From Phanerodontia chrysosporium (Eukaryota > Basidiomycota > Agaricomycetes > Polyporales > Phanerochaetaceae): a DNA stretch of 64,000 nt. The stretch is from positions 310,001 to 374,000 of the forward strand of contig MJGA01000024.1 in assembly GCA_001910725.1 (NCBI GenBank). The letters run 5' to 3'. Both the position numbers and the translations under genes were made by a program. Below are positions 7,782 through 64,000 of this stretch, one piece after another; position 1 is the first letter of the stretch; every line of letters begins with the position of its first letter. Below the pieces are notes generated by a model. That model was not told where the DNA came from and did no database searches. It was given only the letters and a program-made list of their open reading frames with translations.

Positions 7782-8584
7782 GGGTAGGATATTGGGGGTG
7801 CGGTATGAGAATGTCCACGCAGTGCAACGAAGGTTCGTGGGTAGAAGTCACATTGTGCGTGCGCGGCGTGTGCTATTATACTAGCAAGGCGTCGGAGATC
7901 AAATGCTGGTCTCCTTACCGGGCTATCGGTGGCCTGAGGGGCTGCGGCGCATATCGACTGTAGTGCTTTCAGGCTACGCTTCGAGCTGAACAGCTCTTTG
8001 TAAACATTGTGTGACCGCATTGCGCGAAAAACGAAATCATCGCTTACAAATGAAACACGAGGTATAGGAGGTCCCGCTGTTCGACGCCACAAAACGCACT
8101 TCAAAACGCCACCTTCATGACCGGAGCTGTGATCTGCAAGGAGTGCACTGGTGACTCGGGCAGCAAAACGCCACTCACATACAACTCCGAGCTCAAATGA
8201 AGCAGTGGCGTCCGCCTCCTGTGGTCTCACTTCCTTGCGCTGGGGACAAACGTACGCGAGGGTTGGAACGGCTTAAGGGTCTCTGGTATTGATAAGACAG
8301 CGAGCGATACAGCGACGACAAGTGAGCAGATAACGGCGATAGCGTGCGAAACAATGGCGTGGTACAGTAGTGTAAGATATTGCATGCATCCGCGAGAGGG
8401 GCGTGTCCCGAGAGAGAGAAAGGGAAAAGAGTCCATGAGCAGAGAGAATCGTGTCCTCGTAATACAACATGATGATACACAGCGGGTGATTTTGCGGCGG
8501 TCGTGACGGCGTGAAAGGGGCATGGCGAAAGCAGCAGCAACGAGAGCAGGTCGGAGCGGTCACCCGAGGCCGCGTCGGTCACCG
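7782..8584. other. Intergenic, no gene seen
   Basis: Upstream region of KEN-box copy 3 and 3' flank of the Q-rich gene. A minus-strand frame (about 8220-7900) is open but unrecognisable and has no clear start or partner exon. Confidence 0.4.
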
Positions 8585-45155: not shown

Positions 45156-46559
45156 CATACAAATAATGCACATTCTTGGGTCCGTCGGAATACCTGGTAT
45201 CATATATGCTTGTTGATCGGTTACTACGCATTTGTCCTCTGTAAGATATATATTAACTTCAATCTGTCTCTTTAGAGTGGGAGTGTGGTATCACGGTTTG
45301 GCCTGAGGTGAGTCTAGGTTTTACTAACACCATTTCAATTGTGTCCTTCTGGAATCTAACCTTCCGTCCTGCCAATTTGCCTGTCGACCTACTGGAGTCT
45401 TTCTGTGCGCGCTCCGAGTCGCAGGTATGCAGCTCAACTCGTGGCTATTGGAGTCGCCTTTTCAGCTGATTCCCTCTAGAAGAGATACTATCATTAATCG
45501 GGTCTTTTAACGTTTTCACTGCAGAAATGGTGCAGCTCCCGTGCCTTCACATTCGAGCACTAAAATACCTGGGCCCTATACACTGGCATATGGTGCACCT
45601 TTGACTAAATCCACGGAATATTTGACCAGAAAATGAACGAGAGGTGCCCTCTTTTAATGCACCTGCTCTGCAGGGACCAGTCTTTGAAAAGGGTCACACA
45701 TCAGTCACAGCGAGATTTAAGCAGCCCGATGCCGTGAAACGGCCAGCGCCTCCGCCAGGTTTGGAAGGCTTCGTCACGCCATGCATCAACATGCATCAAC
45801 CAGCTGTTCATGACTCTTTTCGTTTTAATCCACACCATCCACACACGTCGTCTGTATAATACCGTAACAGAAGTCTTCTAGGTACGTCTAGAGAGCCATA
45901 CAGAAATCCTGAATTATTTCGGCCAAGTGGAAAGTGCTGGGCACTGGTGTTTTCACGCGGAACACATTTAAAAAGACCCACTTAATGATAGTAAGTTCGA
46001 GGACAGGATCTCACAAGAGATGAGCATGGCGTTGTGCGCAGCAGTGGTACCATTTCTTAGTCTCCTGAAACAGATGTTATATCAAAGATACAACCTCTAT
46101 TACGAATTGAACACCGTTGGCAGGAGTCCTAACAGCTGTTTGCATATCGGTGTAGCAGTCCAAAATAATCAGCAGAATATCACGTTTGCTGTAGTGTTGC
46201 TGCAAGGCGAGGTCGAGGGACCTCGAGGTTGTGAAGTTTGGACCTTAAGAAATCTCGAGGTTCCTTAAGGTCGGCTTAAGGTCGCCTCAGATGCTTAAGG
46301 TAAGGTCAGTTGATGTGACCTTCTATTTATGACCAACAGACTGTCACATCGAGGATGGTCTTTCACTGAGCAAGAGAGCCAGAGGTGCATCACGGGACAT
46401 GCACGAGACATAGCACTGAGATAGCATTTATAACTTAACTACATGCCCCAGTCAGATTCATATGGGTCAATGAAATCAATCCTAGGTTTCTGAAGGAGTG
46501 CACCTGCCAAATTTGCTGCCAAATTCTCTCGTTCGATGCAAGTATAGTGTGCATGTCCA
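45156..46559. other. AT-richer intergenic stretch with AAGGTC repeats
   Basis: Base composition drops here compared with the left part. A cluster of CTTAAGG/AAGGTC motifs at 46,200-46,320 (four near-identical units) could be the subterminal end of the decayed hAT element that follows. No gene is supported. Confidence 0.4.
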
Positions 46560-48260
46560 TCAATGGTGGATGATTGACATCAGTACCATTGACCTCGGGT
46601 TCCGTGCAGTGCTTTCCATAATGAGCCAGTCCTCTGAAAAATTCAAAAGTTCACAGCTGTAGTTATGCTTGAGGAACTGTATGATCTCCATCGTGAGTGG
46701 ATCCATCTTGCTGTGCTGACAAAGGGTGTCAGTCTTTTTGGCAGATGAGAAGATCTGCTCGCATGGGACAGCCGATGCTTGAATGGGAAGGTCGTCTATA
46801 GCAACAGCGAAGATGGTAGGATATTCTGCTTCTCCCTTGTCCTGGGGAAATGCCATGTTAGCGGTGTGGCTGAAATGAATGAAAATCTTGTGTACCTGCC
46901 AGTATGTAAGGCAATTGAAGCCTGGGATTATAGGAACAAGACCCAATATGTTATAGGAGGCAATCTCGGCATTAACTTCAAGTCAGTCTTGCTCTTCCGC
47001 AAGACGTTCAGCGTCTTCTGGAGTTGCTGACATGACGCTTGACTGAGACGAGGTTACAGTGTCTAAAGGTCCTGTGGTCTGCTGCACTCGTTCAGAGATA
47101 CTGCGCTCCAGTTCTGCAAGCTTGGCTAGGCCAGCTACCTGTGCTCTCGCTGCACGAGCAGCATGTGGTGTTGTGGTGGGCGCTAGTGGCACTGTAGGGA
47201 GAGAGGAAGCTGTCACCTCGACAGCAGCCAGATTCACTTCATGTTTGGCCTTTTTGTATCGCAGCATTTGTACCGAGGGATTAGCATATATCATTTGACC
47301 ATCTGTGTAAACTCACTGCAGTGCAGAGGTGGGATTTTGCAGCCTTGTACTCAGTAGCTGACCAGTTCTCTCAGATCCACTGCCGCTTGATAGTGGGGTT
47401 AATGACTTTGAAGCATAGTTAGCAAGAACACACTACAGATCAATAAGGGGTGATGTACCCATTGCAAGCGCATAGACAGGGTTCACCTGGGCTGCCTTCA
47501 TATACGCACTGATGGCGTTCAGGGCTTCGGTGACTGCATGTGCAAGCAAGGGATACAAGTCTATCACCTTCTGCAGAAGCAAAATGAGCCTCTCGTAGGC
47601 TGGGAGAACATGACATAGTGTGGGTGTATACTCCGCTGATAGGACCTCTTGTATGGTATGTGGCACTTCTAGCACGGTATGGAGGATATCAAGAACCTCA
47701 AGCTCGATCTCTGTCAGCTGAACCTGAAGGCGTTGTGACTCTGAAAGATGCCGGTCAAGGAAAATGATAATAGCCTGTTTCCAACAATTAGCAGGAACTC
47801 TGACAATCAGGTAAAGTAACTTACAGGATACAGTTCGAGTACACGGTCAACCATAAAAAACTTGGCAGACCAGCGTACATCATAGTCATAAAGCAGTTGC
47901 GACTTCAGGTCAATGATTTCATGTTCACCAGCCCCAGTCTGCCCAAATGCATGTCGTTCGTTGGCCGCCTCAATACATTCCTCAAAGTTTTCATGACGTA
48001 AACCTGATGCTCGGACGGCAGTGACGACATTCTGACATCTTGCAATGATGTCTCCACGGAGTACCTCGAGGTAGGTCTGATTGTCGCAGAGCTAGGGCTC
48101 AATGCTACACGAGGGAGGGCAGATGGGGACGACGATGACGAGGTGCAGCGGAGCGAGTCACGCAGCGACAAACAAACTTGTTCAGCTGTCTGTATTGACC
48201 AAGATAACATTAGCAAACTATTCTACCATATAAGCTGGGGCTTACCTGTTCGTATTGACC
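46560..48260 (-). pseudogene. Decayed hAT transposase
   Basis: Minus-strand exons give DYDVRWSAKFFMVDRVLELY, AIIIFLDRHLSESQRLQVQ, LPAYERLILLLQKVIDLYP, NPTIKRQWI, and at the C-terminus the hAT dimerisation block YPTIFAVAIDDLPIQASAVP followed by CEQIFSSAKK. Functional-looking introns remain (for example gtaagt...aacag before AIIIF, and gtacac, branch CTAAC, ccccag before DKGEAEYP). In-frame TGA codons stand after NPTIKRQWI and after AERLAEEQD, and the N-terminal half with the BED finger and first catalytic residues is missing. A duplicated 18-bp segment around 48,186-48,260 marks the truncated 5' side. Confidence 0.72.
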
Positions 48261-48271
48261 AAGAGGTCGAG

Positions 48272-49105
48272 ATTATGCCTAGTATATTGCTGTTGGTTTA
48301 GGGTACATGTTGAGTTCAGGATCGGGCTAAGTACAGGTTCATGGTTGTTAATGGGTTAAGGTGGATTCAACTAGGGTTGAAGGTGAAGTATCTGAAGTGG
48401 TGTTGAGACAGCCTATGTGCCGTGAATGTTTTGAAACACTCGCGGCGATGCCTACCATTCTTTGCGATCATGAGCATTTGCAGCAGCCTGAGCCATTTTG
48501 TAAATTAAATAATAATCATATCTCATCCAAATAAAATCGCACAAATTGGCATAAATCGCCGCGATTGTTTCGTGACATTTGTGGTGATGCCTACCATTTT
48601 TCGCGATTTTTCCACGGACATTCGCAGTCAGGATTAAATAGTTATTCAAGAATGAAATCATAAATTATTATACTGGGTTTTTATTGGTTGTTTAGGGTTT
48701 AGGTCACCCTTAAGGCATAGCCTCGCACATTTGGAGAACCAGTTTGTATATGAATTAGCATAGTAAAGGTGCTTAAGCTGAAAGTGACAGATGAAGTGAT
48801 TAAAAAGAATAGTGCAATTTGAGCGTACTGACTCATGTAAAACATGCAAAAGAAGCAATTCTGCCGATCACTGTTCGATCAGGGGTCAGGGAAATAGACT
48901 GATAATTGTCAAAGGTGAAATGAACTTAAAGTCTCCGATCGCTGTTCGAGCAGCAATCGGAGAGGAAGGGTTATTCCGTGATTTCATTATGCCTAGATTC
49001 TTGCTGTCGGTTTAGGGTACATGTTGGGTTCAGGATGGGGCTAAGTACGGGTTGAGGGTTGTTAATGGGTTAAGGTGGGTTCAACTAGGAGATAAGTATA
49101 GTACA
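48272..49105 (+). repeat. Direct repeat pair with a third inverted copy
   Basis: About 110 bp at 48,272-48,385 recur at 48,990-49,105 with some 85-90% identity by eye (shared blocks include GGTTTAGGGTACATGTTG and TTGTTAATGGGTTAAGGTGG). A third, more diverged copy lies inverted near 52,140-52,060, upstream of small paralogue B. The repeat precedes each of the two convergent paralogues and ends near palindrome copies. Confidence 0.65.
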
Positions 49106-49403
49106 GGTAGGTTATGGTTACAGAAGGGGTACAGGGTGTAATATGGGTCCTGGGTAGGTAAAAGAAGGGTATATGTAAGGTTTTGATAGGGTTGAAGGTA
49201 AGGAATGTGAAGTAGTGTTGAGACAGCCTATGCGCCGCGAATGTTTTGAAACACTCGCGGCGAAGTGACATAGATGATGATGGAGCCATATGGACATGAG
49301 TCAGCCGCGAATGTTCTGAGACACTCGCGGCGGACTGACGTGATGATGAGTGATGGAGCCATATGGACATGGGTCAGCCGCGACCGTTCTGAGACACGCG
49401 TGG
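48420..49403. repeat. Degenerate family-B palindromes
   Basis: Copies at 48420-48445, 49235-49260, 49305-49330 and 49378-49403, plus a poor one at 48559-48584. The half-site reads CCGCGAATGTTTT or near, against CCGCGCGTGTTTC in the perfect copies at 58.6-62 kb. The outer CCG...CGG is kept. The last two are 70-75 bp apart with related linkers (GATGGAGCCATATGGACATG in both). Confidence 0.75.
48864..48960. repeat. Palindrome family A, cluster 1 (2 copies)
   Basis: Copies at 48864-48889 (poor) and 48935-48960 (half-site CCGATCGCTGTTC and its near-complement). Located upstream of small paralogue A. Confidence 0.7.
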
Positions 49404-49738
49404 CTTTGGGGGGCCCAGAACGCAGATGAGAATTGATAGGTGTCGAGAGGGTTAAAAGAGGGGTTAAAGAAGGGATTTGTGCCACGACAAATTTTACAGA
49501 CTTTTGTGTTGGCCAAATAGTACAGATTATACTATCTGGGATGTCAGAAAATGCATATGTCTGCCACAAACATATTAAAAAACAAAGGCAAAGGCGGATA
49601 TGTCCATTGCATAGCCATCAGCTGGTCAATATATCTGCAAACAGGTGCATACAACATGTGATCAAATTCTGATCATTAGCGATCTCGCACAAGGGCAGTG
49701 CTGAGTGACTTGGAAGACCACCACCACCATCCACCCTG

Positions 49739-50397
49739 ATGATGTCCAGCACTACCGATTCGCGTGCCGTTCCCGAAGAGGTCGAGGATGGGGAGCATGT
49801 CTCACCTGGCGTAAGTAAGGTTTTCGCCGAGTTGAAGATGGTACTGATGAAGAGTTTGGCAGAACGGAGATGGGAGCCCGGTGCGCAACCGACAATACGT
49901 GTTTGAGGAGCATTGGAAGTTCGAGGGTTTGTCTGGGCCGTGGTACCGCGATCGAAATTGGGACAACTTCGAGGGAGATTTCGCAGAGTACGCACGGCAG
50001 AACGATGACGCTGAGGACGTCAAGAAGGCCAGGTTCGTGCGCATACTCCACAGCGCGCGGGCGATTGCTGGAATGATCCTGAGGATGAACCTGAATATCA
50101 ACGATATGTCGCGGGGTGACGAGGCCTGGACGACGATCCGTGACACCGGGGTGAATTCGTGAACGACATTGATGCATAGTGTGAAAGCGGGCTTACTATC
50201 GAATCCAGACGTATTGTCGGGAGCATTTCGGACCGAGTCCCTGGAACATTGCGATGTATCACCTCGTGCGGAGTCATGGTCTGCACTGGCTTAGGACCTT
50301 TCAGCGCGATTTCATTTTTACTATGTCCGAGAGTTTCGACTTTGAGTTCACATTGCATCAGGAGCTCGCGCAGCACGAGAAATGTTGCTACTTGTAA
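49739..50397 (+). CDS. Small island paralogue A (about 182 aa)
   Basis: Three exons: 49739-49810, 49863-50150, 50209-50397; phase-0 introns of 52 and 58 bp; 182 aa. The start is the ATG before MSSTTDSRAVPEEVEDGE. Exon 2 holds the family core: KFEGLSGPWYRDRNWDNFEG, DFAEYARQNDDAEDVKKARF, VRILHSARAIAGMILRMNLN. Exon 3 begins TYCREHFGPSPWNIAMYHLV and ends with a Cys pair (EKCCYL). It is mostly helical with no known domain, signal peptide or membrane segment. Paralogues B and D share the three-exon layout; exon 2 has the same length (288 bp) in A and B. Transcribed towards B. Function unknown. Confidence 0.8.
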
Positions 50398-50503
50398 CTA
50401 GTATCCCTCGTTATTGGCATGTTTGGTCGTGAAAATCTACAACTCGGGGTCAGTTATGTATGCTGTAACAATGAGATCAAATACATGAAAAGCGACTAAA
50501 TCT

Positions 50504-50739
50504 CCGATGGCTGCTCGAGCAGCGATCGGACAGCGTACACTGATGAGAGGTGACAACGAATAGAACCAGTGTGGCCATCCGATTGCTGATCGAGCAGCGA
50601 TCGGGTGACAACAGATAATGAGGTTGGTAAGGTCACCCGATCACTGTTCGAGCAGCGGTCGGGGAACCACCAACAATTGAGGGCATTGGAGAGAGGCAGC
50701 ATACCCATGGGCCCCGATCGCTGCTCGAGCAGCGATCGG
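50504..50739. repeat. Palindrome family A, cluster 2 (4 copies)
   Basis: Copies start at 50504, 50579, 50637 and 50714 (26 bp each; spacing 75, 58, 77). The last is a perfect palindrome with half-site CCGATCGCTGCTC centred on an XhoI-type CTCGAG. The cluster lies between the convergent 3' ends of paralogues A and B. Confidence 0.92.
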
Positions 50740-51101
50740 AGAGAGGCATTCATTGTGCAGAAGGCACTTTGATCGCTCCCCATAGCAGGCACAGTAACAA
50801 CCACTTATCACACACAAGCCACAATAGTCTTCATATTACGACATGCTAGGTTTCAAGTTACGGGTGCCTCAGTTATGTAACAACAAACAGAGATTGTGAA
50901 TCAGTGTCAGTAGTATGCAAATGTGACTGCTGGAAGACAACAAGTCGCCTTTCATCATCGATGTTAGAATACAAGCAGTTTATATGAATGTGACCTTATC
51001 TCAAAGCCCACCATAAATCACACAAATTATTTCTCTTCCTCGGGATAGACTGGATACATTTGAAACCGATTTGTACAGCAGATAACGCACATAGCAATGA
51101 G

Positions 51102-51769
51102 TTATTCATAGAAGCAGATGCACCTTTCGATCTGAGAGAGCTCCTGGTGGATTGAGTCTTCAAACGGGAGCGCGTAGTCACCGGACCACTCATACTTGAA
51201 CTCGCCGTTGAAGTTCAAAAGCATCCGCAGACCATGACTCCACACGAGGTGACGCATGGCAATTTCCCACGCAGTCTCTCCGTATTTCTGGATACACTCC
51301 AGCTGGGTTCAACAGTGAGCTCGCTGTCACACTATGCATCATTATCGTCCATCAACTCACCGCGAAATCGCGGAGGGCGGTCCATGCCGGGTCGCCGGAA
51401 GTCATTCCGTTGATATCCAGGTTCATCCTCAGGATCTGGCCAGCAATCGACCGCGCGCTGGTGAGTATGCGCACGAACCTGGCCCTCTTGACATCCCGGG
51501 CATCATCGTTTTGCCGAGCGTACTCTGCGAAATCTCCCTCGAAGTTGTCCCGATCTCGTTCGTGGTACTTCTCCCCAGACAAACCATCAAAGTCCCAATA
51601 TCGCTCAATCGCGTATTCTACCTCGCGGAGCATCCTCCCACGTCGATCCTGCCAAACTCTTCATCAGTACCCTCTTCAGTTCAGCGAAAACCTTACTTAC
51701 ATGAGATGAGGCACGCTCGCCATCGTCGACCTCTTCGGTCACGGCACGAGAAGGAGCGTTTGTGGACAT
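51102..51769 (-). CDS. Small island paralogue B (about 185 aa)
   Basis: Three exons: 51769-51701, 51648-51361, 51302-51102; introns 52 and 58 bp, the same lengths as in A; 185 aa. Start MSTNAPSRAVTEEVDDGERA; core YWDFDGLSGEKYHERDRDNF, EGDFAEYARQNDDARDVKRA, RFVRILTSARSIAGQILRMN; exon 3 LECIQKYGETAWEIAMRHLV ... ERCICFYE. The introns are also close to those of A in sequence (gtaagtaaggttttcgc at the first donor), so duplication is recent. It faces A across palindrome cluster 2 and has cluster 3 upstream. No function can be assigned. Confidence 0.82.
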
Positions 51770-52316
51770 TATGATGAGGGGGTGGTGGTGGTTGTCTTTC
51801 AAGTCGCTCAGCACTGCCCTTGCGCGAGATCGCTACTGATAAGAATTTGATCACATGTTGTATGCACCTGTTTGCAAATAGATTGACCAGCTGATGGCGG
51901 TGGAATGGACATTCCCGCCTTTGCATTTGTTTTCGTTTTTAAATATGTTTGTGGCAGACGTATGCAATTTCTGACATCCCAGATAGTATGATCTCTACTA
52001 TGTGACCGACACAAACATTTGTAAAATTGGTCGTGGCACAAATGCCTTTTCGTCAACTCCTCTTTGAACCCTCTGAACCCCTAACCCATTCTGAACCCAA
52101 CATCTACCCTGAACCGAGGGCAATTTATTCGAGGCATAAACACTTCTGACATTTATTCACGATCTCTGTTTGTGGTTACATGATTGAGGGACTGGTGACT
52201 TGAAAACCAGCATGTCATGATATGTAGACTGTTGTCGCTTGCGTATGACAATTTGTTGTCACTTTGCCTGCTATGGGGTGTGATCGAAGTGCCTTCTGTG
52301 CAATGAAGCCCTCACT
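51770..52316. promoter_or_regulatory. Promoter of paralogue B, inverted copy of A's promoter
   Basis: About 250 bp (52,050-51,790) match 49,480-49,720 in inverted orientation (shared CACATGTTGTATGCACCTG-type blocks, a GATCTCGC stretch and a CATCCCAGATAGTAT block). The promoter is therefore part of the duplication that made A and B. The diverged third copy of the 110-bp repeat follows at 52,140-52,060. Confidence 0.6.
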
Positions 52317-52551
52317 CCGATCGCTCCTCGAGCAGCGATCGGGGCTCATGGGTATACTCGCTCCCTTTGCTGCCTTCGATTGTCGGTGCTTCCCGATCGC
52401 TGCTCGAACAGCAATCGGGTGGTCCTACCAATCTCGTCAGCTGTCGCCACCCGATCGCTGTTCGAGCAGTGATCGGGCGGTAACACTGGTTCTACACAGT
52501 GTTAGCTGCCATGACTGGACCGTTTCCGATTGCTGCTCGAGCAGCCATCGG
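52317..52551. repeat. Palindrome family A, cluster 3 (4 copies)
   Basis: Copies start at 52317, 52393, 52451 and 52526; spacing 76, 58, 75. The cluster and its flank are an inverted duplicate of cluster 2: the outer flank of each shares GCACTT..GATC.C.CCCCATAGCAG-type sequence and the spacings mirror each other. Here every copy has one or more mismatches between its arms. Confidence 0.9.
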
Positions 52552-53126
52552 AGATTCAGTCACGTTTCATACGGTCGATCTCATCTTTGTAGCATAAATA
52601 ATTTGTATTTCCCGCTTACGTAATTCGACATAGACTGGAATGTGTCGAGGATACCCCCTTTTACTTCGCAAAAAATAAAAGTCAAAGCCTGGAGGGTGAC
52701 CGAGGCGCTGAGGTACCGGTAAAAAACCGCTTATTTTGAAGAGTTTATTAATTGAATTCAATGGAGGGAATGGATGGAAGTTGCGGCTTCCCCGGTCGGC
52801 TGACACCAGAAGGGCGGGCTGTCTGCATGAATGCTAAATAACAAAATTGGGCCTTGTTTAAACGAGAGGAGGGTCAGGATGCGCAGAATGAGATGGGACG
52901 GTCAGAATCTGTCAATCCGTGAAGCAATCAAACCGTGCGTGTTCCGCTGTCGCGTCTTCCTGGCGTGTGATAAATGGAGTGTCATGTGAGAAATTCATAT
53001 GAGTGGACAGGGCCCAAGATTAGATTGTACATGCTTGGCGCTCTTTCTTTATTGTACTGTTACTGTGGATGGTAGGCGACAGGATGCTCTCCGTTCGCCT
53101 CCCCCCCTTCTCTTTCACGGACCACG
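52552..53126. other. Intergenic before the SAM-like gene
   Basis: No gene or repeat seen. It contains the promoter side of the next gene; a pyrimidine-rich run (cctcccccccttctctttc) lies just before the start codon. Confidence 0.4.
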
Positions 53127-54061
53127 ATGATTCCGGTTCCAAAGTCGACATCGAAGTTCCGCAGGCTCACTTCGATTGAAGGAATGACGGCAGGAGAGAG
53201 GAGGGAACTGATCGTGCGTTGGTGAAGGAACTTGGAGGGTCGATTGAAAAGCTAATTGCAATATTGTTGTTGAATGGGCAGAAGGTGGCGAGGGAGGAGT
53301 ATCCACGGTTCATCCCTTTGGAGAGGCGTTGGGGTGATCGGTCTGCAGCAGAATACGAGTCACTGCGGAACAAAGTGAGTGCTGAGTAGGCTGAATTGGA
53401 AGGGAAAGATAGAAATATAGCGAGGTGCTGATGTACAATATAGGTGATGGAGAGATGCCCGTTCCTTGGACGGTACGAGGAGGGGTGGCCGCTGGAGGTG
53501 TATCTACGAGCACACGTGACGAGCCAGCAGTGGCGGGCTGAACAATCGTTGAAGAAAAAAGGCAAGGGGCGCAAGGCGAAAGAGAGTGAGGAGGAGAATG
53601 AAGAACCTATGGATGAGGACGAGGAGGAGGAGGAGGAGGAGGAGGAGGAGGAGGAGGAGGAGGAGGAGGAGAAGAACGAGGAGGAGGAGGACGAGGACGA
53701 GGAAGATGAACTTGTTGAGGAGGAGGACGAGCAGGCTCAGGGAAGCAAGAATGGCAAGGTGATGGAGACGATGCAGGCTGATGAGCCTGAGGAGGTCGGG
53801 AGTAGCATGGCTACTCAGGATGCGAGCGCTCCAGTCGAGTCAGGTGGGGCTGTCCTGGAGTTTCTCCGAAACCTGCAGCTCCCGCTTGACACGTACCTCG
53901 ATCGGTTCCTGGAGGCAGGTATTCGGACGGAGGAGGATTTGCGCGCGGTGGCGAATCTAGGTGAGGATAATTATTTGAAGATGCTCCGTCATAATATTGG
54001 GATGACGCTTCTCGACTCCCGCCGTGTTGAGTCTCGGTTGCGGGAATTGTATCTTCACTAA
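53127..54061 (+). CDS. Acidic protein with SAM-like C-terminus
   Basis: Three exons: 53127-53213, 53282-53374, 53444-54061; phase-0 introns with gtgcgt and gtgagt donors; 265 aa. Start MIPVPKSTSKFRRLTSIEGM, then VAREEYPRFIPLERRWGDRS and CPFLGRYEEGWPLEVYLRAH. A (GAG)n microsatellite encodes a Glu run of about 20. The end, VLEFLRNLQLPLDTYLDRFL then EAGIRTEEDLRAVANLG and RVESRLRELYL, has the pattern of a SAM domain, which usually mediates self-association. An alternative start at 53069 in another frame meets TGA at 53177, so I prefer the spliced model. It sits in the island between palindrome clusters 3 and 4. Function unknown. Confidence 0.68.
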
Positions 54062-54148
54062 GTGCCATGTAATGTAACAATAGTTGTCTGTTTGTAGTAG
54101 ATATTGTTGGCCAACTTACGAGAGTTTACTGTTGAACGGTGCGAGACT

Positions 54149-54234
54149 CCGATGGCTGCTCGAGTAGCGATCGGGGGATGGCGGACATTGAGATTGGTGC
54201 TAAGTCCCCCGATCGCTGTTCGAGCAGCGATCGG
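54149..54234. repeat. Palindrome family A, cluster 4 (2 copies)
   Basis: Copies at 54149-54174 and 54209-54234, 60 bp apart, in the 333-bp gap between the SAM-like gene and paralogue D, so within the promoter of D. Confidence 0.88.
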
Positions 54235-54394
54235 AGAGGCACTACCGTTCAGTTCAAGACAGTGCGCAGGAACGATAAACACGTGCTTTGGCTATCAAGC
54301 ATGGGAACAATTAGTAGATTACAAATCGTCACATCGCCCGTTCGCTGTCGAACGCAGCTTCAAGAGTACCACCACCTCATCGAAGTTAGTTCAT

Positions 54395-55051
54395 ATGGCA
54401 CAGAACAACCAAGGCGAGGGATTGAACAGAGGAGAGCCCGAGGCGAGGAGAGCGGTGAGCCATTAAGCTAAATGAGGTTATTGAGGTTAACGTGGTAGGA
54501 TAGGCTTTGGGGGAGGAGGCAGCGATGTCCAACGATGGGAGGGAATCGGCCTTTGACGGGCTATCAGGTGAAGCTTATGGAGAGGAAGCATATGACCTGG
54601 CGGACGGTATAAGCGAGGACAACATGGTTGGGAACGCCGAGGAAAGAGAAGTTGCTTTGAAGAAGGCGAGGCTGAGGCGAATCGTGTCAAGTGCTTGGCA
54701 GATTACGTCGAGGTTGCTAGAGCTGGAGAAGTTGATCCCTGATATGCAGGCAGGAGATCTGACTTGGTTGGTAGTCCAACATGAAATCGTAAGTGACTGG
54801 AGGACTGAAAGTCATTGATGGAGGACTGACGGAGCGGTGGTTGTGGACAGAGGCAGTCCATTGCTCGATACGGAATGCATGCGTGGCAGCTGGCTGCCTC
54901 TCATGCAATCGAGTTTCATGGACTGGAGCGATTGGGCCAGTTCCCAGCGGCTTTCTACTTCGATCCTGAGGTGGGAATTGTTCATGGATACCGAAGGATC
55001 GCGCGAACGCTTATGGAACGGGATGACCGCTGCTACGAACGTCGAGAGTGA
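54395..55051 (+). CDS. Small island paralogue D (about 181 aa)
   Basis: Three exons: 54395-54454, 54504-54788, 54851-55051; phase-0 introns of 49 and 62 bp; 181 aa. More diverged than A and B but clearly related: SAFDGLSGEAYGEEAYDLAD, EVALKKARLRRIVSSAWQIT, SRLLELEKLIPDMQAGDLTW; exon 3 RQSIARYGMHAWQLAASHAI ends RDDRCYERRE. The shared pattern across the three is FxGLSG ... VKxARxxRIxxSA ... I/L ... DxxW and, in exon 3, a YG...AW motif followed by SHG/FHGL. Flanked by palindrome clusters 4 and 5. No domain recognised. Confidence 0.75.
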
Positions 55052-55347
55052 ATTTTATTATGGGTATCCATCATCGAAACTCAATTCAATAATAAATTTC
55101 ATTGTGTTCTATTTTATATCGGACGAAGAGAAAGAAATGAGACGAGATTTCAAATTTGTGAAGAAAAGGATGGGGTTGGCTAAGGCCTGCAGACTGCAGG
55201 CCAGTGTGAATGGGATGGCCTGACAGGATGTGAAGCGTGATACAGGCGCCCGAGCAGAGCTTGCGAGTTAAGACCAAAGTCAAAACAAACCATTCACAGA
55301 AATGGCCATGTTTGCAGACGGAGCGTTTGCAGAGATAGAATATCCTC
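55052..55347. other. 3' flank of paralogue D
   Basis: AT-rich 3' region with an imperfect palindrome around GGCCTGCAGACTGCAGGCC (55,183-55,201). No gene. Confidence 0.45.
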
Positions 55348-55666
55348 CCGATCGCTGGACGAGTAGCGATCGGAGTGGCACAACGAGAATGGATGCAATC
55401 ATCCGATCGCTACTCGACCAGCGATCGGAAAAGAGGCACCGTATTGGCGCAGGATTGAATTGAGAGGTGTCACCGACCGCTGGTCGAGGAGCGATCGGGC
55501 CATGAGGCAGCATCCCCAAATTCCTGCTCAATCCGATCGCTGCTCGACCAGCGGTCGGAAGAGCGAGGTGAATTTGATTGGACAGCGTAGTGACAGCCAA
55601 ACACGCATCGAAATTGCATTCTCGCCATTCCTGAATGCTCCCGATCGCTCCTCGAGCAGCCATCGG
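55348..55666. repeat. Palindrome family A, cluster 5 (5 copies)
   Basis: Copies start at 55348, 55403, 55473, 55533 and 55641; spacing 55, 70, 60, 108. Outer half-sites are mostly intact (CCGATCGCT...AGCGATCGG) while the inner four to six bases vary without compensating changes (for example ACTCGACC, GGTCGAGG). The cluster separates paralogue D from the first GGQHR gene. Confidence 0.9.
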
Positions 55667-55914
55667 GAAGACACAAAAAGTTATGTCCACATTGAGCCTT
55701 ATCAAATAAATTAATTAGTTGTGTTAATTCCAAATCTGGACGGCGTGCAATCGATCGCATGCTGATCGAGGCGTTTTTTACTCACTCAACCACCACTCGG
55801 TCGAGAAACTCGCGAACAACAGCAACAGCAACAGCAACAGCAACAACAACAGTAAGTGGGACATTGTCATTAGGGTGCAGAGCAAGTCTGACAGGGAAGG
55901 TCGCCCTAGGAAAC

Positions 55915-58081
55915 ATGTCTGAAAAATCGAAATCTGGTACACGGAAGGCGAGGACGTCTCTCGCAGCTGCACCTGAGGCCGGGTCGTCGGCGACAGGGCG
56001 CGGCAGCAACGTGGCGGGAGATCGCCCTGGAGGATCGGAAGGCAAAGGAAAAGGGAAGGGAAAAGGCAAGAACGTGACGATCGACGAAACTACGGTGCGC
56101 TTGATACGTCATGGGAACTCCTGTTGGGAGTTCCCTGCAGGGTAAAATGAAGTGCTGACGTGATGAACAGAAGCAAAAGGTTGACGCGGAGATCCAGAAA
56201 AAGACCAGCGAGCTGGAGAGGACGCACACAGAGCGGCTGCAGCAGTTGTCCAAGGCGGCGAAGAAGGCACTGCTCGGACATGCGCGGATGAACTTGTCAG
56301 AAGGCGCGTTGGTCGAGCTCGAACACGGTATCTACAACACGCGCGCGCTCCTGAAGCAGGCTACGCAGAATCTCAAGAACGGCATGATCGAGGCTGGCAT
56401 CCAGCGCTGCGACGCGACGTCGGTGATTCTGATTCCGGTCCACGTCAAGACGCAGCTGAAGCCCGACGCGGTCGAGCGGCTGAGCAAGTGCCGGGACCTC
56501 GACCGACTGCGCGAGCTGTCGATCTCAGAGGCAAGCGAAGAAGAGTGGCCGACGGTCGAGTCGCTCGTCAAGGAGGACGTCAAGATGTTGCCCTTTTGTG
56601 GCGGACAGCACCGTCAAGCGGCGCTGCGTGCGGTTCTCAAAACTGCGGAGACGCAGATCGCGGCGGCGATGCAACGCTACGCGACGATCGAGGCCGATCT
56701 GGGGACGCTTCAGGACCAGGCCTTGAAAGAAGACCTCGCGAGCGAGAAGATCGGCGCGGAGCAGCCGTCGGCACGGCGCAAGATCTTCCTGGAGGAGGAG
56801 AGAGACAAACTGCTCATGTCGATGGCGAAGTGGGAGAGGATCCGCAAGGATGGCGGTCTCTGGACTGTGGCTTTGTATGACGCTGGTGAGTGCGAGGCTC
56901 GAGTGGAATGCGTCTCGAGGGAGCTGAAAATTGTGCGCAACAGATTTATTGGCTATGGACGATTTGTACGCTATGGCAAGGAACGAGGCGGACCCCAAAT
57001 ATGTGGAATCGAACGAGGAGTTCTTGGACATGCTGATGGTACAGGTGGCGCAGATGCGGGACCGCTACATCTACGGCGAAGGCGAGGACGGCGAGGCGGC
57101 GGCGGCGGCGGCGATGGCTACAGCGGCAAGCGAACTGGAGGGTGTGCCGCACGCAGTCCAAGAAAGCAATCGGCTCAAGGAGAGGGCGCGGCTTGCAATG
57201 GAGGAGGTGAAGACACTCGAGGCGAAGATCAAGGCCGCGTCGAAGGCGAGGCAAGACGTGTCGGCGTTGAAGCAGGAGCTCGCGGCGGCGAAGGTCGAGG
57301 CTTCAGAGGCGAAGACTGCTGTGAACGAGGCAGTCGCGGCAGCTGAAGCAGCGCGGGTGAAGGAGACGGAGGCCGCAATGAAGGAGAGGAACATGAAGGC
57401 GCGGGGCGTCATGGACACGCTGAAGCAGAAGGCGAACGACAGGGCTGGCAATAAACCGGGCCCTGTCATAGGCCTGGTACGTTGCGAGCATGCGGTCGCG
57501 TTCTTGATCCGTGTGGTGCGTGGATGCCGTGCGCTGGCTCGGCATCCGCTGTGGAAGGTCCCGGAGTTGTTCGCGCATCTGCTTGGAACGTCTGGAGCGG
57601 TGAGTTTGGGAATTTTTTCTTTTCGTGCGAACGAACTGAGATAATGTATTTGTGCGGGCAGATTACATCGGAAATAGTCGACACGCTATGGGAGTGGATG
57701 GACGCTATGGGGCGTATGGTGGCGGAGTGCGGCTCGCAGCAGGAGGTGAGGACGTGGGTGCAGAGCCTCGTCGAGAAGAGCGACACGCTGGATGAGAAGG
57801 CGTTGAAGCAGAACGAGGAGGAGCAGCGTGGATGCTGGCTGCGGTACCTGGGGAACCCTCGCCAGAAGCCGTCGTACGACATCCTCGAGGACCTGCTGCC
57901 GGTGATCGACGAGGCGTACCTGGAGGCGTTCCCTCGTACATCGGACGGCGAGCCGAGCGACGCGATCATGGCGCTGACGGCGGATGGAAGTCAATCGCTG
58001 GGCGAGGAGAAGATTATATGGGAAAATCGACTGTGGGTTCAGGGTTCTAGGTGGGTTATAGGTTGGACCACTTTTTGGTAG
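55915..58081 (+). CDS. GGQHR (ParB/DndB-like motif) protein, truncated paralogue
   Basis: Four exons: 55915-56094, 56171-56885, 56944-57599, 57662-58081; about 656 aa. Start MSEKSKSGTRKARTSLAAAP with a KGKGKGKGK run. Exon 2: KALLGHARMNLSEGALVELE, LKPDAVERLSKCRDLDRLRE, EEEWPTVESLVKEDVKMLPF, then CGGQHRQAALRAVLKT. GGQHR resembles the DGQHR/GxxHR core of ParB- and DndB-like folds. Exon 3 has DDLYAMARNEAD and a long Ala/Lys/Glu coiled coil; exon 4 VDTLWEWMDAMGRMVAECGS ... DEAYLEAFPRT. The downstream paralogue continues for 700 more residues; here the frame runs into a GGGTAC-rich minisatellite and stops (last residues VIGWTTFW). So it is either a short isoform or a broken gene. A (CAACAG)n tract lies just before the start. 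Confidence 0.72.
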
Positions 58082-58560
58082 TGGGGTTTTGGGGGTACAT
58101 AACTGGAACTGGCGCGGGAAAGGGGTACAATTTGGGGGTACCCAAGAATCAAGGGTGAACCCAGGGCAAGGTACATAGGAGGTACAAGTAAGGTACAATA
58201 AGGGTACAATAAGGGTACAATAAGGGTACATGAAGAGTACAAGTAAGGTATAGGTAAGGTACAAAGGGGTACAAGGAAGGTATAGGTAAGGTTCAAGGGG
58301 GTACTAGAAGGGTAACAAGAGGGTACAAGGGGGTACTAGAAGGGTAACAAGAGGGTACAAGGGGGTACTAGAAGGGTAACAAGAGGGTACAAGAGGGTAC
58401 TAGAAGGGTAACAAGAGGGTACAAGAGGGTACTAGAAGGGTAACAAGAGGGTACAAGGGGGTACTAGAAGGGTAACAAGAGGGTACAAGAGGATACCAGC
58501 AGGGTAACAAGAGGGTATGGATAGGGTCCAGGTAAGGCTCCAAGAGTTCGCGGAAGGTAT
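58082..58560 (+). repeat. GGGTAC-rich minisatellite (32-bp unit)
   Basis: Six 32-bp units (GTACTAGAAGGGTAACAAGA plus GGGTACAAGGGG) start at 58301, 58333, 58365, 58397, 58429 and 58461. Before them come shorter GGTACAATAA units. It abuts the end of the truncated GGQHR gene and leads into the family-B palindromes. Confidence 0.9.
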
Positions 58561-58596
58561 AAGGGGTTTGGATAGTGTTAAATATACATGACCTCC

Positions 58597-58908
58597 CCGC
58601 GCGTGTTTCGAAACACGCGCGGAGAGTACAGCGTATCCTGTGGTGTTGGTTGGTAGAGGGTACAAAGAGGGTACAAAGAGGTCCAAGGTCTTGAAAAGGA
58701 CACTACGCTACACGTCATCTCGATCCGCGCGTGTTTCGAAACACGCGCGGATGGATGCATGAAAACGGACATGTCCATCCGTGCGTGTTTCGAAACACGC
58801 GCGGTGATGGACCGATGTCAGAACCTCTCCGTGCGTGTTTCGAAACACGCACGGATGGACATGTCCATTTTCATGCATCCATCCGCGCGTGTTTCGAAAC
58901 ACGCGCGG
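58597..58908. repeat. Palindrome family B, intergenic cluster (5 copies)
   Basis: Copies start at 58597, 58725, 58779, 58829 and 58883. Half-site CCGCGCGTGTTTC, centre TTCGAA; copies 1, 2 and 5 are perfect, copy 3 has one arm mismatch, copy 4 is a perfect palindrome with CCGTGCG arms. The last four copies are nested: 58725-58802 is the reverse complement of 58831-58908 with one or two differences, giving a 184-bp inverted repeat that also includes GGACATGTCC and ATGCAT palindromes. Confidence 0.93.
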
Positions 58909-59177
58909 ATGGGCGCCTTGTTTGATATGATCTGATTTGGATGTCCGACAAGCCCCATATCTGGGCATACAAATTATTAATATTATATTCTCATCAATTG
59001 ATACACCCAAAACGGGACATATGCCATCGATCGATGGATCAAGGCTCCCTCGTCGATGTCGCCTCTCGCTCTCTACCTTCACCAACACACCAGCAGACCC
59101 TAAATATACTGTTTGTGAGTGCAGTGCAAATTGATCTTACTACTAAGTTACTCACTGTGGTGTTAGTTTGCTTAGAA
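58909..59177. promoter_or_regulatory. Promoter of the second GGQHR gene
   Basis: AT-rich 270 bp between the palindrome cluster and the start codon at 59178, with ATATTATATTC near 58,980. The palindromes thus lie 270-580 bp upstream of the gene. Confidence 0.45.
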
Positions 59178-62100
59178 ATGGCCCCCAAACAGTCAGCTAA
59201 AAGCTCTGTTTTGAAAAAGGCGATCAAGCTGGCCAAGGCCAACCCTGCCAGTGATCCCAAGGCGCTGCTCACTTCGCTTGCCAAACAGGGGACTGCAAAG
59301 TCCTCGGATGCGAATGCTAAGGCGTCTGGGAGCCAGCACACTGCGCAGGCGGACGCTGCGGACCCAGAGATTGCTGTTCTGAGCGAGGAGAGCGAGAAGA
59401 GCGAAGGAGAGAAGGATGCAGAGCAGGCCTCAAAGGGAAAGGGGAAGGAGAAGGCAACGGACGAGGATGTTTGGGTAGACGAAGTCCTCACTCCCGAGGA
59501 ACAATACGTACGTGCTACATTGAACTAAAGCAGCGAGGTATATTAAATATAGATCGTATTCAGTCGAAGGAGCTCATGGAGGTCATGAACGAGCTATCCA
59601 AGCTCCCCGAGGACAAGAACATCGTCGACCCGCACGTCATTGTGAAGATGCGGGTGAACATTCACGCGGCGTTCCTCGGATACGCTCGCGTTAACTGGAT
59701 CGCACCTGAGTCAGTCCGTGCCGAGTTCGGCATGTGGGTCAGGCGTTTGGTTCACAGAGTCGGTGTCTCGAACCTGGTGAGGAAGTTCGACGAGGAAGAG
59801 ATTCGACGCGTCGACTTGGAGACGATGTTCAAGATCCCGCTGAGTCCGGCGACGGACCTCAAACCGGACGCGGTCGAACGACTCCAGCGGTGCGCGAGCT
59901 TCGCAGCACTGCAGAAGCTCGACATCGTCAAGGCGTCGGAAGAAGACTGGCCTACGCTGGACTCGCTGGTGAAGGACGGCACGAAGTACGTTGCTGTCTC
60001 TGGTGGACAGCATCGTCTCGCCGCGCTTCGGGAGTACATGAAGATTCTGAACGTCCGGCTCGTTCAAGGCGCGGCTCAGATTCATGCGTTGCGCGCGGAG
60101 GCCGAGCGGCTGAAGCCGCTGGTCGAGAAGGAGAAACTCGACGGCCCGCAGGATACTAGCACCCTCCCGTACGCTCGTGAATACAAGGTCGTGCTCGACG
60201 ACTTGGAGAGGGTGACTGTGCAGACGCGGAAGTGGGCGCAGATTCAGAAGGCGAGCGGATGGTGGCTCGTCGCGATTTACGACTATGGTGAGTGGCGAAT
60301 TACTGGTAGATGCTATTAACGAAGCTGACGGACAAGTTACGACTTGACAGACAAGCTGACCTCGGACGATCTCTACGAGATGGCGAGGAACTTCCGGGAG
60401 ATGGTGCGCGGAGAGACTCCTGAGGAGTTTCTGGAGATGATTCTGGGGCTCCTCGGCATCGAACTGGACAAGCTCGTCTATGGCGAGCAGAAGAACGACG
60501 CGAGCAAATTGGTGAGTATCGCGGTGAAGAATCTGGTAACGACGGCGACTTCAATGAAGGACGCGAACGCGCCTCCGGCGGAAGCTGAGAAACTCCGCAT
60601 GGACGCCGAGGAGGCAGACGCGAATGCGGGTGGCGCGAACGAGGACGCATCTGCGCCCGAGACCTCGACGAAGCAGACGAAGGCGGCCGCAAAGGCAGCT
60701 GCTCAGGCTGCGAAGACTGCAGCGAAGGCCGCGAAGGCCAGCAAGGCTGCGAAGGGCGCGAAGAAGGACACGACTCAGATTGTCGACGCTGCGACAGCCA
60801 TGGCCGAGGTCGCGAAGCAGCAACTGGGTCAGCCGCGAAAATCGGCGGCGGTGACTGCGCTGCTTCGCTCGGTGCATTCGCTCAGCCTGTTGGTTCGCAT
60901 CGCACATGCGAAGGACGGGCTGGCGAAGCACGCGATCTGGAAGGTGAACTTGTTGCAGAAGCATTTGCTAGACGTGTACGGAGCGGTAAGTTCGCTCGCA
61001 CGTGCGAGGCTTGGCTTGACGTGCATGGGGCGTTGCTGATTTCTTTGGAACGCAGCTTGCGTCGACGATTGTGGGGACGCTCTGGGTGCATTTTGATGCG
61101 ATGGGGCGGGTCATCAAGGACTGCCCCGACATCAGCACTCTGGACAACAGCATCGGCAACTGGACCCAGCAGGGTGCTTCGGAAGTCCCTGAAGTGGTCG
61201 CGCAGTCGAGGAAAAGCTGGCGAGGAATGTACAAGCTCATGCTGGGGAACAAGACAGAACGCCCTTCCTATGAAATACTCCCTGACATCATGGCCTTGGC
61301 GGACGAGGCGTACATGCATGCTTTCAAGACTGACAAGAAGCGCGTCGAGCTGGCGGACGTCGCGTTGTTGCTGACGAATAAGACTCTGCGCAACAACGAC
61401 GATCAGGCCCTCGTCCAGCATGCGCTGGAGATGTACCTGACGAAGCTGCGCGAGCTCGTCTCTGCGAAGTGCGAGAGCGTGAAGGCGGACGACAGTGCGT
61501 CGCAGCACTCGAAGGATCTCTGGGCGCAGGTCGAGGCGAAAGCCGTCGTCTTTGTGCTCTCTGGGCAGCAATGCCACGAGAACTTTGGGCCGATGCCGCT
61601 TCCCAGCCTCACGTTCGTCATGGACACGTTCCGTCGCTTGGAGTTTTGCAAGGACGCCTTATCTGAGGTGAGTACGGCGTTATCTTTCTTCGTATAGAGT
61701 TTGGGTGCGATTCCCCGCGTGTGTTTCGAAACACGCGCGGATGAGTACGCCATTTTAGACCCAAGACTTCCTTCATGTCGTTCGAGCCCACGAAGGCGAG
61801 GATGGGGTGGTTCCCCGCGCGTGTTTCGAAACACGCGCGGATGACCGCTCCGTTTTAGACCCAAGGCTTCAACCTTGTCGTTCGAGCCCACGAGGGCAAT
61901 ATGTGGGTGGTTCCCCGCGCGTGTTTCGAAACACGCGCGGATGACCACTCCGTTTTCGACCTCAGGCTTCTTGCTTGTCATCTGAGCCAGCGAAGGCGTG
62001 AATGAGCGTGGTTTCCCGCGCGTGTTTCGAAACACGCGCGGTGACTTGGTCGATTTATATGCACGGTCCCCTTTTGAGCTCGTTTTTTCAGTTGTAGAGT

Positions 62101-64000
62101 GATCAACTGACACAATCATCTTTGCAGATTCTCCCCTTCTTTGACCGCTCGATACCGTACATCATCACGAAGAACTTCTCCCCGTACATCGCACGCGACT
62201 TCTCCGAGGGCGTCATCGCCGCCTTTCGCAACCCCAACTCAAATATCGTCCCCAAACATGTCGACAAGGCAGTGGAAGCGGTGTGTCATGTCATGGCTAG
62301 GACTATCCGTCGTGCATACATTGTACTTATGCCTCGATACAGCTGATGTGGACGCTGTACAACGAGGGCCCGCGAACTATCTACTTCATCGAGGACAAGA
62401 TCAAGACCCTTGTCCCGCCTCGCCTCCTCGCCAAGGCAGAACAGGGCGCAGTCCTGTCAGATGCCTGGTTCAACAGCAACGTCCAGGATATTGACACAGC
62501 GCGCACCGATTACAACGCCCGCCGCACCAACCGCACGAATAACCGTATGCTCACGAGCCTGAACGAGCAGCTCAACAAGTTGCCGCGAAGTGGCCGTACT
62601 GCCGTCGTCCAGCAGAGCGCGAAAGCAGAGACAGCAAAGGGCGGCAAGGGCAAGGGCAAGGGTAAGGGCAAAGCAGCGGACACCGCCACCACGACGGCCA
62701 AGGGCAAAGGCAAAGGCAAGGGCAAGGCCAGCAAAGCGACCGCAGAGGAAGCTTCCGACAACGCCGCCTACGTCCCCCCCACCACCACCACCGAGCCTAG
62801 CGTCCAGACTGTCGAGTCTGCGATAACCTTCGTCGACATCGCGCCTTACCAGGACTGGCTGAACTCCGACACCTTCGACCTCCTCGAGGCCCTGACATCG
62901 TACAACACCGAGCGCGAAGCTCTCCAGAACATCGTGAAGCTTTGGATCAAGGACCCCGAGAAGAAGTGGAGCGTACGCCACCAGGCTGTCACGTCAAGTC
63001 GGTCAGACGCAGGCCGATGGACACTGCGGTCCCACTACCTTTGGCCTGCGTTCACTGGGAACAGCATGAACGAGCAGATCAGCACGTTGTTCCTCGCCAT
63101 GATTTTCGAGAGCACGCACAGCAAAGTGGTGCTCCCGAAAATCATGGATGATGAGCACATGCTGCAGCTTCGTGCTTCGATCGAGGCCGCGCTCGACCCT
63201 TACTCCCAGCCTGCCCTCGTCGCCACCACGAAGTCCGTCCGGATGTTCATCTGGCCGGACGGCGCGCGGTCGGCAGAATCCATCGAGAAGAAGCGCGAGG
63301 CTGCCTTGCGCGCACGGCGTGAGCGAGCAGCCGCAAGAGCTGCACGGAATACGCGCCTGAAGGGCAAGAAGAAGGCTAACGACTCTGGCGACGTCGAGGA
63401 CCAGAACGAGGATGAAGACGGCGCGAAGGGCGAGGGCGACGAGGAAGACGAGGAAGAGAACGAAGGCGACGAGAACGAGGAAGAAGACGAGGACGACGAG
63501 GATGACGAGGACGACGAGGACGACGAGGACGATGAGGACGACGAGGATGAGGAGGACAACGACAACGACAACGACGAGGACGCAACATCGGCTTCGTCGA
63601 GCAGCGACGGTGGGTCTGAGATCTCCGCGTACACCGACGCGGAGGATGAAATCCCCATGCCGTTGGAGATGCTGCGGGCCCTCATCCTCTACCATCGCGA
63701 AATCCGCGCCGAGGTCGCCAAGGTCGAGGTAATCTTCCGACGCCTTCTCTCCGTCTCTGGCGTGTACGCTGTACACCCTGTAACCGGCATGATCGTTGTG
63801 AAGACCATCTCGAAGGCGGTCATTCAGGCACTTCAGGCAGCGTGGACAGTAAGTAGAACGTTTATTGAATGTCAGTCAAACTGAAGTATTGTATTCAGGT
63901 CATCATGGAGAATCTGGAGCGCCAGCGCGAGATCAAGGTGGGCCACCTCGACGGCTCTGACGCAGACGAGGACGAGGACGAGGACGAGGACGGTGGCCAC
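59178..64000 (+). CDS. GGQHR (ParB/DndB-like motif) protein, long paralogue, partial at window end
   Basis: Exons: 59178-59511, 59553-60287, 60351-60985, 61056-61667, 62128-62280, 62343-63848, 63899 to the edge; at least 1359 aa. The first splice is uncertain (a 41-bp intron keeps the frame; the better donor 4 bp earlier does not). N-terminus rich in Ala/Lys/Ser; YARVNWIAPESVRAEFGMWV; LKPDAVERLQRCASFAALQK; EEDWPTLDSLVKDGTKYVAV; GGQHRLAALREYMKI at about residue 262; DKLTSDDLYEMARNF; VGTLWVHFDAMGRVIKD; DEAYMHAFKTD. The C-terminal half has two KGKGKGKGK runs, a core SVRHQAVTSSRSDAGRWTLR and a Glu/Asp-rich tract. The ParB/DndB link rests on one motif. Intron 4 (460 bp) contains four family-B palindromes. 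Nuclear DNA-associated role inferred. Confidence 0.72.
61668..62127 (+). other. Array-bearing intron of the long GGQHR gene
   Basis: Donor gtgagt after DALSE and acceptor tttgcag before ILPFFDRS, phase 0. At 460 bp it is far longer than the gene's other introns (41-70 bp), and nearly all the excess is the palindrome array. Confidence 0.8.
61715..62041. repeat. Palindrome family B, intronic tandem array (4 copies)
   Basis: Palindromes start at 61715, 61815, 61915 and 62016, a period of 100, 100 and 101 bp. Copies 2-4 are identical and perfect; copy 1 differs by one base. Linkers are related (TTCGAGCCCACGA and GGGTGGTTC in several) but carry many substitutions and small length changes. Confidence 0.95.

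Follow-up and report, generated by a model that had tools for sequence, protein, structure and literature searches.

Why should every gap between the genes of one small island hold 26-bp palindromes? The question is raised by a stretch of 64,000 nucleotides from Phanerodontia chrysosporium (hereafter the window; positions 310001-374000 of contig C63, in an assembly of 39.0 Mb and 145 contigs), where a gene set at 48.4-62 kb comprises three small paralogues (A, B and D), a gene for a SAM-like protein and two genes for proteins with a GGQHR motif, GGQHR1 and GGQHR2. This gene set forms the inward-facing portion of an island near a chromosome end. All such islands have a long GGQHR gene, and those of the P1 type (named for palindrome P1, below) also have passengers: A, B, SAM-like, D and other genes. 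We find that three classes of GGQHR genes co-vary with three types of palindrome, a conclusion that is well supported. We suggest, with a probability of roughly 0.4, that each island is kept active by its own GGQHR protein, which would recognise the palindromes there, like the VANC anti-silencing proteins of Arabidopsis.

A reading of the window made from its letters (the sequence-only reading) had described one palindrome system, with clusters in all five gaps, more copies upstream of gene A and inside GGQHR2, and none in the first 48 kb. The five gap clusters (4, 4, 2, 5 and 5 copies) and the copies upstream of A were all recovered where that reading had placed them, and its observation is confirmed and stronger than was claimed; the single system is not. 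P1 (CCGATCGCTGNTCGANCAGCGATCGG) is a 26-bp palindrome found in every gap between gene A and GGQHR1, P2 (CCGCGCGTGTTTCGAAACACGCGCGG) is a 26-bp palindrome upstream of GGQHR2 and within it, and a third, P3 (CCGCGAGTGTCTCGACACACTCGCGG), belongs to islands with class-III GGQHR genes outside the window. The copies within GGQHR2 are likewise present, held by a predicted 460-bp intron and not by the gene interior as such. The clusters, given in window positions and found in a palindrome scan, are as follows.

48420-48584, unstranded: two degenerate sites of the P2/P3 group
48864-48960, unstranded: cluster of two P1 copies that precedes gene A, at 48864 (degenerate) and 48935
49235-49403, unstranded: three P2/P3-group sites, degenerate, at intervals of 70-73 bp
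50504-50739, unstranded: P1 cluster in the A-B gap, 4 copies, spacing 75/58/77
52317-52551, unstranded: P1 cluster in the B-SAM gap, 4 copies
54149-54234, unstranded: P1 cluster in the SAM-D gap, 2 copies, one exact
55348-55666, unstranded: P1 cluster in the D-GGQHR1 gap, upstream of GGQHR1, 5 copies
58597-58908, unstranded: P2 cluster in the GGQHR1-GGQHR2 gap, upstream of GGQHR2, 5 copies
61715-62041, unstranded: P2 cluster in a predicted GGQHR2 intron, 4 copies, ~100-bp spacing

The first 48 kb are empty, as had been said: P2 has no match there within seven mismatches, and the sole P1 match within that limit has seven (at 39358). Near-perfect palindromes (arms of 12 bp, no more than two mismatched pairs), when sought de novo, occur at 31 positions in the window, 23 of which are members of the P1 and P2 families or their degenerate relatives, compared to 1-5 positions in each of ten Markov-shuffled windows. 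Across the genome, 526 copies of P1 and 71 of P2 were found at three mismatches or fewer, and none of the reversed patterns. The types are kept apart, with 0 of 77 clusters mixed in the stretches read (clusters with at least two copies at up to three mismatches). Degenerate palindromes of the P2/P3 group were also seen at C63:376323-377240, at L033 (contig C73) 10332-10897 and at C55:714000, some of them in 143-bp units; this group, for which no GGQHR class has yet been found, is perhaps the relic of a fourth type.

A six-frame genome search with the GGQHR2 domain exon yielded 23 GGQHR loci, and the GGQHR1 exon as query gave 24 matches, with one gene in two pieces. Five loci are P2-class (93-100% identical to GGQHR2), six are class III (57-58%, among them a fragment and a copy with an in-frame stop), eleven are P1-class (one a fragment) and one, P1-prime, is 62% identical to GGQHR1; the three main classes are 31-57% identical to one another. 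When the palindrome search was extended to the genome and set against the positions of the gene family, as the sequence-only reading had proposed, the matching palindrome was on the same contig for 23/23 loci and within 2.2 kb for 22 of them, and the claim that the palindromes go with the gene set and not with the genome at large is supported. The distances are regular: an exact P1 site stands 1.9-2.04 kb upstream of the domain exon in 11/11 P1-class loci and 0.68 kb upstream in P1-prime, a P2 site stands 647-692 bp upstream in 5/5 P2-class loci, and P3 stands 0.7-2.2 kb upstream in all five full-length class-III exons (one with the in-frame stop).

The third type was met at the class-III genes themselves. 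The first two (on C117 and C73) have no P1 and no exact P2, and carry P3 in 52-bp units ~700 bp upstream; P3 is placed likewise at a third (on C21). A genome scan made after P3 had been seen at these three genes, with the palindrome centre left open, found 188 copies at up to two mismatches, with 0 in the control. All 42 exact copies lie on C21, C73, C79, C82 and C117, precisely the five contigs with class-III genes. Similarly, among the 50 P2 copies listed, exact P2 is confined to the five contigs with P2-class genes (C63, C85, C93, C116 and C117). The agreement extends into the genes: the intron near GGQHR2 residue 772, whose position has been kept, has P1-type arrays in four P1-class copies and in P1-prime, and P2 in four P2-class copies. 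In the GGQHR1 copy on C116, the intron that matches the 460-bp intron of GGQHR2 has seven palindromes of P1 type that depart from the P1 consensus at 3-4 positions. Finally, the class-III islands on C21 and C117 contain an A/B-type gene whose DNA is 93% identical to that of the versions in P1 islands. P3 arrays flank it there, whereas the versions in P1 islands are flanked by P1, and on C21 its homology to P1 islands ends 16-39 bp from the P3 arrays on both sides.

The islands are a feature of chromosome ends. C63 is 442,101 bp long and carries a terminal (TTTAGGG)n array at 442099 of 442101, and the end of the window is therefore 68 kb from the telomere. TTTAGGG is the telomeric repeat (the triple repeat matched 107 times forward and once in reverse); TTAGGG was tried and rejected, as four tandem copies gave 0 matches. 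Exact P1 is present in 45 copies on 19 contigs (a complete listing, from a narrower pattern), all less than 82 kb from a contig end, and the most distant copy, at 81.4 kb, is in this window. Judged from 100 of the 108 TTTAGGG places, at least seven contigs have an array at the very end (C51, C55, C57, C60, C63, C64 and C121); in five of these seven (C55, C57, C60, C63 and C64) exact P1 lies towards that end, and from C51 and C121 it is absent. The islands are multi-copy, and long stretches are mostly 94-98% identical between chromosome ends.

This setting invites the explanation that the palindromes are passive and nothing recognises them: slippage would have multiplied short palindromic repeats, and exchange between chromosome ends would have kept them alike. 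Many clusters are indeed tandem units of varying copy number, long segments are mostly 94-98% identical between ends, and inserted retroelements and joints speak of active rearrangement. Nonetheless, we regard passivity as quite improbable, given the lack of mixed clusters, the absence of palindromes from the rest of the window, the restriction of exact P1 to contig ends and the retention of sites while the spacers of the same arrays diverge. Across nine comparisons between older duplicates, 94.1% of palindrome columns (1028/1092) and 67.9% of spacer columns (1673/2465) are identical. In these comparisons sites were called by similarity, and hence a positional repeat was made with sites defined in C63 alone: in five P2-gene comparisons the mean best match is 23.4-25.8 of 26 for sites versus 19.8-21.7 for spacer 26-mers, the weakest comparison being upstream of the C93 gene. 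Sites that are kept while spacers diverge, same-type sites at separate places within each class and the A/B gene between P3 arrays together call for a common recogniser or strong homogenisation. The sequence-only reading had named a mobile-element family as the main alternative. This is weakened for the palindromes, which occupy fixed homologous positions, and stands for the islands, which are multi-copy, share that high identity and adjoin a telomere-associated retroelement.

The pattern of change within P1 bears on how the sites may be read. Among 80 distinct copies, half-site positions 1-4, 8, 9, 12 and 13 are nearly fixed while 5-7, 10 and 11 vary; 167 changes are one-sided, 21 symmetric and 10 two-sided but not symmetric, and symmetric double changes are no more frequent than in shuffles (mean 15.6, maximum 26). 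Mostly one-sided change with no excess of symmetric change fits a dyad read by protein better than a folded stem. The palindromes could alternatively act as RNA hairpins in termination, splicing or as small-RNA precursors, since perfect palindromes can fold and two GGQHR2 arrays lie in predicted introns; yet the P1 change pattern does not support such a reading and arrays also occur upstream of genes, and we consider it hardly credible. Half-site differences follow protein divergence: the consensus half-sites of P2 and P3 differ at 2 of 13 positions and those of P1 differ from either at 6 of 13, and the domains of the P2 and P3 classes are 57% identical while the P1 domain is 31-35% identical to the others, a trend of three points with no statistic.

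The GGQHR exons are under purifying selection. The ratio of nonsynonymous to synonymous substitution rates (dN/dS) of the domain exon is 0.12-0.34 within classes, between P2 and P3 and between P1 and P1-prime (in one pair, C21-C73, dS is zero). We liken GGQHR to the GQHR/box-II motif of the ParB/sulfiredoxin fold, and the P2 core TGTTTC/GAAACA to the halves of parS, and on these grounds GGQHR might work in a ParB-like way, loading on the palindromes, spreading along the island and clustering chromosome ends or aiding segregation. Arrays that recur every 1-3 kb in most islands read would suit such spreading, as would a predicted order of strand-helix-strand-GGQHR-helix, taken from models of very low confidence. 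However, the parS likeness of P2 does not extend to P1, the N-terminal ParB domain PF02195 has no match at E≤1 in any of eight GGQHR exons, and no ParB match was obtained in Pfam, NCBIfam or PDB sequences. The structure models are poor, with predicted local distance difference test scores (pLDDT) of 52.7 and 45.2, and Foldseek, run with the first of the two models only, returned nothing at E≤0.001. Membership of the ParB family was not borne out by sequence, and we think partition or tethering of this kind very improbable.

Other searches with GGQHR gave little. The sole NCBIfam match below E 0.001 was to G3PDH_Arch, an aldehyde-dehydrogenase model, in which 53 residues of P1-class exons align to a model of 502 positions (E 5.7e-5 for GGQHR1 and 3.7e-4 for the C44 copy; 22 and 19 bits versus a cut-off of 780), the other six exons having no match. 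A profile of all eight exons reached a PDB aldehyde dehydrogenase only at E 0.26. We set this candidate aside as chance, without proof. No homologue of GGQHR2 was found among 5.8 billion proteins at E≤0.001 or E≤0.1; the search had no positive control for close fungal relatives, which makes this weak evidence, and one of the searches scored only the best 7997 candidates.

The near-end location, the three-way co-variation and the constraint on sites and protein are observations; the mechanism that follows is our proposal. A GGQHR protein, probably as a dimer, would recognise the 26-bp dyad that belongs to its class, in arrays that stand upstream of its own gene, between the genes of its island and, for the P1 and P2 classes, within two of its own long introns. 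The protein would cover the island's non-coding DNA and so maintain expression where the chromosome-end setting would otherwise silence it. The suggestion of the sequence-only reading, proteins with cognate DNA sites, is in this sense partly supported: the co-variation bears it out, whereas binding is something that we infer. The ratio of observed to expected CpG agrees weakly with anti-silencing, at 1.09 in the non-palindrome island, 1.72 in the palindromes and 0.56 in the stretch with the hAT remnant. In that stretch (46001-48400) CpG is at 0.56 and TpG/CpA at 1.34, versus ~1.07 in the first 47 kb, and this CpG depletion is a sign of past cytosine methylation or of a similar mutator.

Several observations weigh against recognition by GGQHR. 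The co-variation could in part be linked descent. For the class-III fragment at C79:17956 the closest P3 copy listed lies 13.7 kb away, a P3 copy with one mismatch occurs at C55:714000 on a contig where no class-III gene was found, and the three class-III copies read are cut by inserted elements near the residue-772 intron. Six clusters of degenerate copies (4-6 mismatches) receive mixed P2/P3 labels, and several of them stand beside P1 genes. Between the P1 and P2 domains dN/dS is 0.74 with dS near saturation, and it is 0.72 in the passenger pair A-B. Constraint on the palindromes among very recent copies was also rejected, as it comes from the A-B group alone; when that group is left out, variable columns number 21 of 494 in sites and 58 of 1077 in spacers, which are not clearly different, and when it is included they number 32 of 598 and 155 of 1329. 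Spacers between palindromes have a CpG ratio of 0.84, and retroelements are not CpG-poor (a Gypsy-like stretch 0.94, another retroelement 1.07, a Penelope-like element 1.13); the CpG test is weak for these two reasons. Finally, Pfam and NCBIfam scans found no recognisable DNA-binding domain in GGQHR.

The last point would be expected if a factor other than GGQHR, either a host protein or another island product, bound the palindromes as insulators or blockers of position effects, the types differing only through divergence of linked blocks. In favour of this, the sites of the islands that were read lie between genes and close to chromosome ends, and P1 arrays also flank genes other than GGQHR. 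A single host factor, however, has no need of three dyads; moreover, the dispersed sites of an island are of one type, two predicted introns included, and A/B genes that are nearly identical have whichever site type goes with the GGQHR class of their island. We therefore consider another binding factor unlikely and retain recognition by GGQHR as the proposal. That at least three mutually orthogonal pairs of protein and DNA address coexist in one nucleus, with GGQHR as a new eukaryotic family of dyad-binding proteins and each class using its own palindrome, placed in introns and gaps, for marking, defending and perhaps spreading its own chromosome-end territory among telomeres, goes further, and we speculate on it as a doubtful extension.

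The genes of the island, in window positions, are listed below.

49740-50397, plus strand: gene A, paralogous to B and encoding a small protein; approximate ends, with the main exon at 49851-50159
51105-51770, minus strand: gene B, inverted paralogue of A; main exon 51355-51660; ends approximate
53444-54058, plus strand: SAM-like gene, last exon, with an acidic repeat and a weak SAM_2 match
54395-55050, plus strand: gene D; ends approximate
55918-58014, plus strand: GGQHR1, P1-class, cut short within an exon where a P2-type segment adjoins
58170-58556, unstranded: GGTAC-rich minisatellite with a 32-bp unit, beside truncated GGQHR1
59178-64000, plus strand: GGQHR2, P2-class, continuing past the window to ~66097; GGQHR motif in exon 2 (59553-60287)
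61668-62127, plus strand: predicted 460-bp GGQHR2 intron with the second P2 cluster

The paralogy of A, B and D described from the window holds (65% identity between A and B over 102 amino acids, 37% between B and D over 81), and gene A is multi-copy in other islands. A SAM_2 match does exist in the SAM-like protein, as had been read, although it is weak (E 0.0042, below the Pfam cut-off). Both GGQHR proteins were found, neither of them whole in the window. Homology of GGQHR1 to the P1 islands of C116, C44 and C113 ends at C63:368014 (~58014 in the window), where homology to the P2-type island of C117 begins. GGQHR2 is predicted to have eight exons and 1844 amino acids, from 59178 to ~66097 in continued window coordinates, with introns of 41, 63, 70, 460, 62, 50 and 639 bp; both long predicted introns hold P2 arrays (61715-62041 and 64949-65401), and no palindrome lies in its predicted exons. 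A stretch resembling the GGTAC-rich minisatellite adjoins a retroelement near C63:394.0-394.4k.

A reverse-transcriptase (RT) element of Penelope-like look is joined to island DNA via short TTAGGGTTT/TTTAGGG-like tracts on four contigs, with copies as follows.

L034 (contig C21) 4696-9000: RT element
C114 3566-7871: RT element
C44 864317-866625: RT element
C33 ~4661-5290: RT element

The C21 copy matches RVT_1 at E 2.1e-6 and 28.0 bits, narrowly short of the 29.6 set as curated cut-off, and cuts the class-III GGQHR gene at an exon end; its kinship to Penelope is presumed from its motif. The C117 class-III copy is interrupted by a copia-type element (RVT_2, E 6.7e-76; L032 1-3460) and the C73 copy by sequence that by eye is like Gypsy gag and has no Pfam match (L033 3001-4980), in both cases just inside the intron that has palindromes in other classes. 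Two open reading frames (ORFs) for SNF2-like ATPases were seen on L029 (contig C113) at 2746-3660 and 8543-9472 (E 6.1e-5 and 2e-5, narrowly missing the Pfam cut-off); they lie close to the beginning of this 1.57-Mb contig and outside the palindrome area.

Should the pairing be real, a single genome would contain three naturally occurring pairs of protein and site that have diverged to different degrees (domains 57% or 31-35% identical, half-sites different at 2 or 6 of 13 positions), and swapping would make the evolution of DNA-recognition specificity open to test. Self-encoded, sequence-specific anti-silencing would be extended from plant transposons to chromosome ends, and a function would come within reach for subtelomeric gene families, which are often left unexplained.

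Among known systems, ParB-parS is alike in having dyad sites with a protein of GGQHR-type motif encoded beside them. It differs in that GGQHR has no sequence or fold match to it, is eukaryotic and has dozens of sites per island; no ParA was looked for. For the RT element that adjoins the islands, the comparison is with Coprina of basidiomycetes and Terminons of rotifers, which we take to be telomere-associated Penelope-like elements, the difference being that in the copies read the RT element is separate from the unit of GGQHR and palindromes. The subtelomeric RecQ helicase families of fungi are likewise multi-copy near telomeres and variable between ends (PMC7473861), but the few island ORFs scanned gave no RecQ match and the word palindrome is absent from that paper. 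Besides VANC, titles and the beginnings of abstracts in the open-licence literature revealed no comparable system.

For VANC of the Arabidopsis VANDAL transposons, arrays of the target motif are described from non-coding DNA, among it introns of the gene for VANC itself, and the motif changes from one VANC protein to another (PMC5735166). The differences from GGQHR are that the motif there has 9 bases and the palindromes here 26 bp, that VANC belongs to transposons and GGQHR to subtelomeric islands, and that VANC acts in Arabidopsis by binding with loss of DNA methylation, while for GGQHR, from a fungus, binding is a proposal and the likeness is one of gene and site layout. VANC of VANDAL also sits on a MULE with the VANA transposase, and among those island ORFs that were scanned by Pfam (not every one) no transposase was found. 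The two systems are alike in the following. In both, the protein is encoded by repetitive, selfish-looking DNA (PMC5735166, PMC10398659); motif arrays stand in tandem repeats of non-coding DNA, introns of the own gene included (predicted introns for GGQHR); each related protein has a different motif, which for GGQHR is seen in the linkage of P1, P2 and P3 to the classes and not in binding; and the protein has conserved and repeat-rich parts. Based on this parallel, we therefore propose that every GGQHR class may bind its own arrays and so keep its islands open near the telomere.

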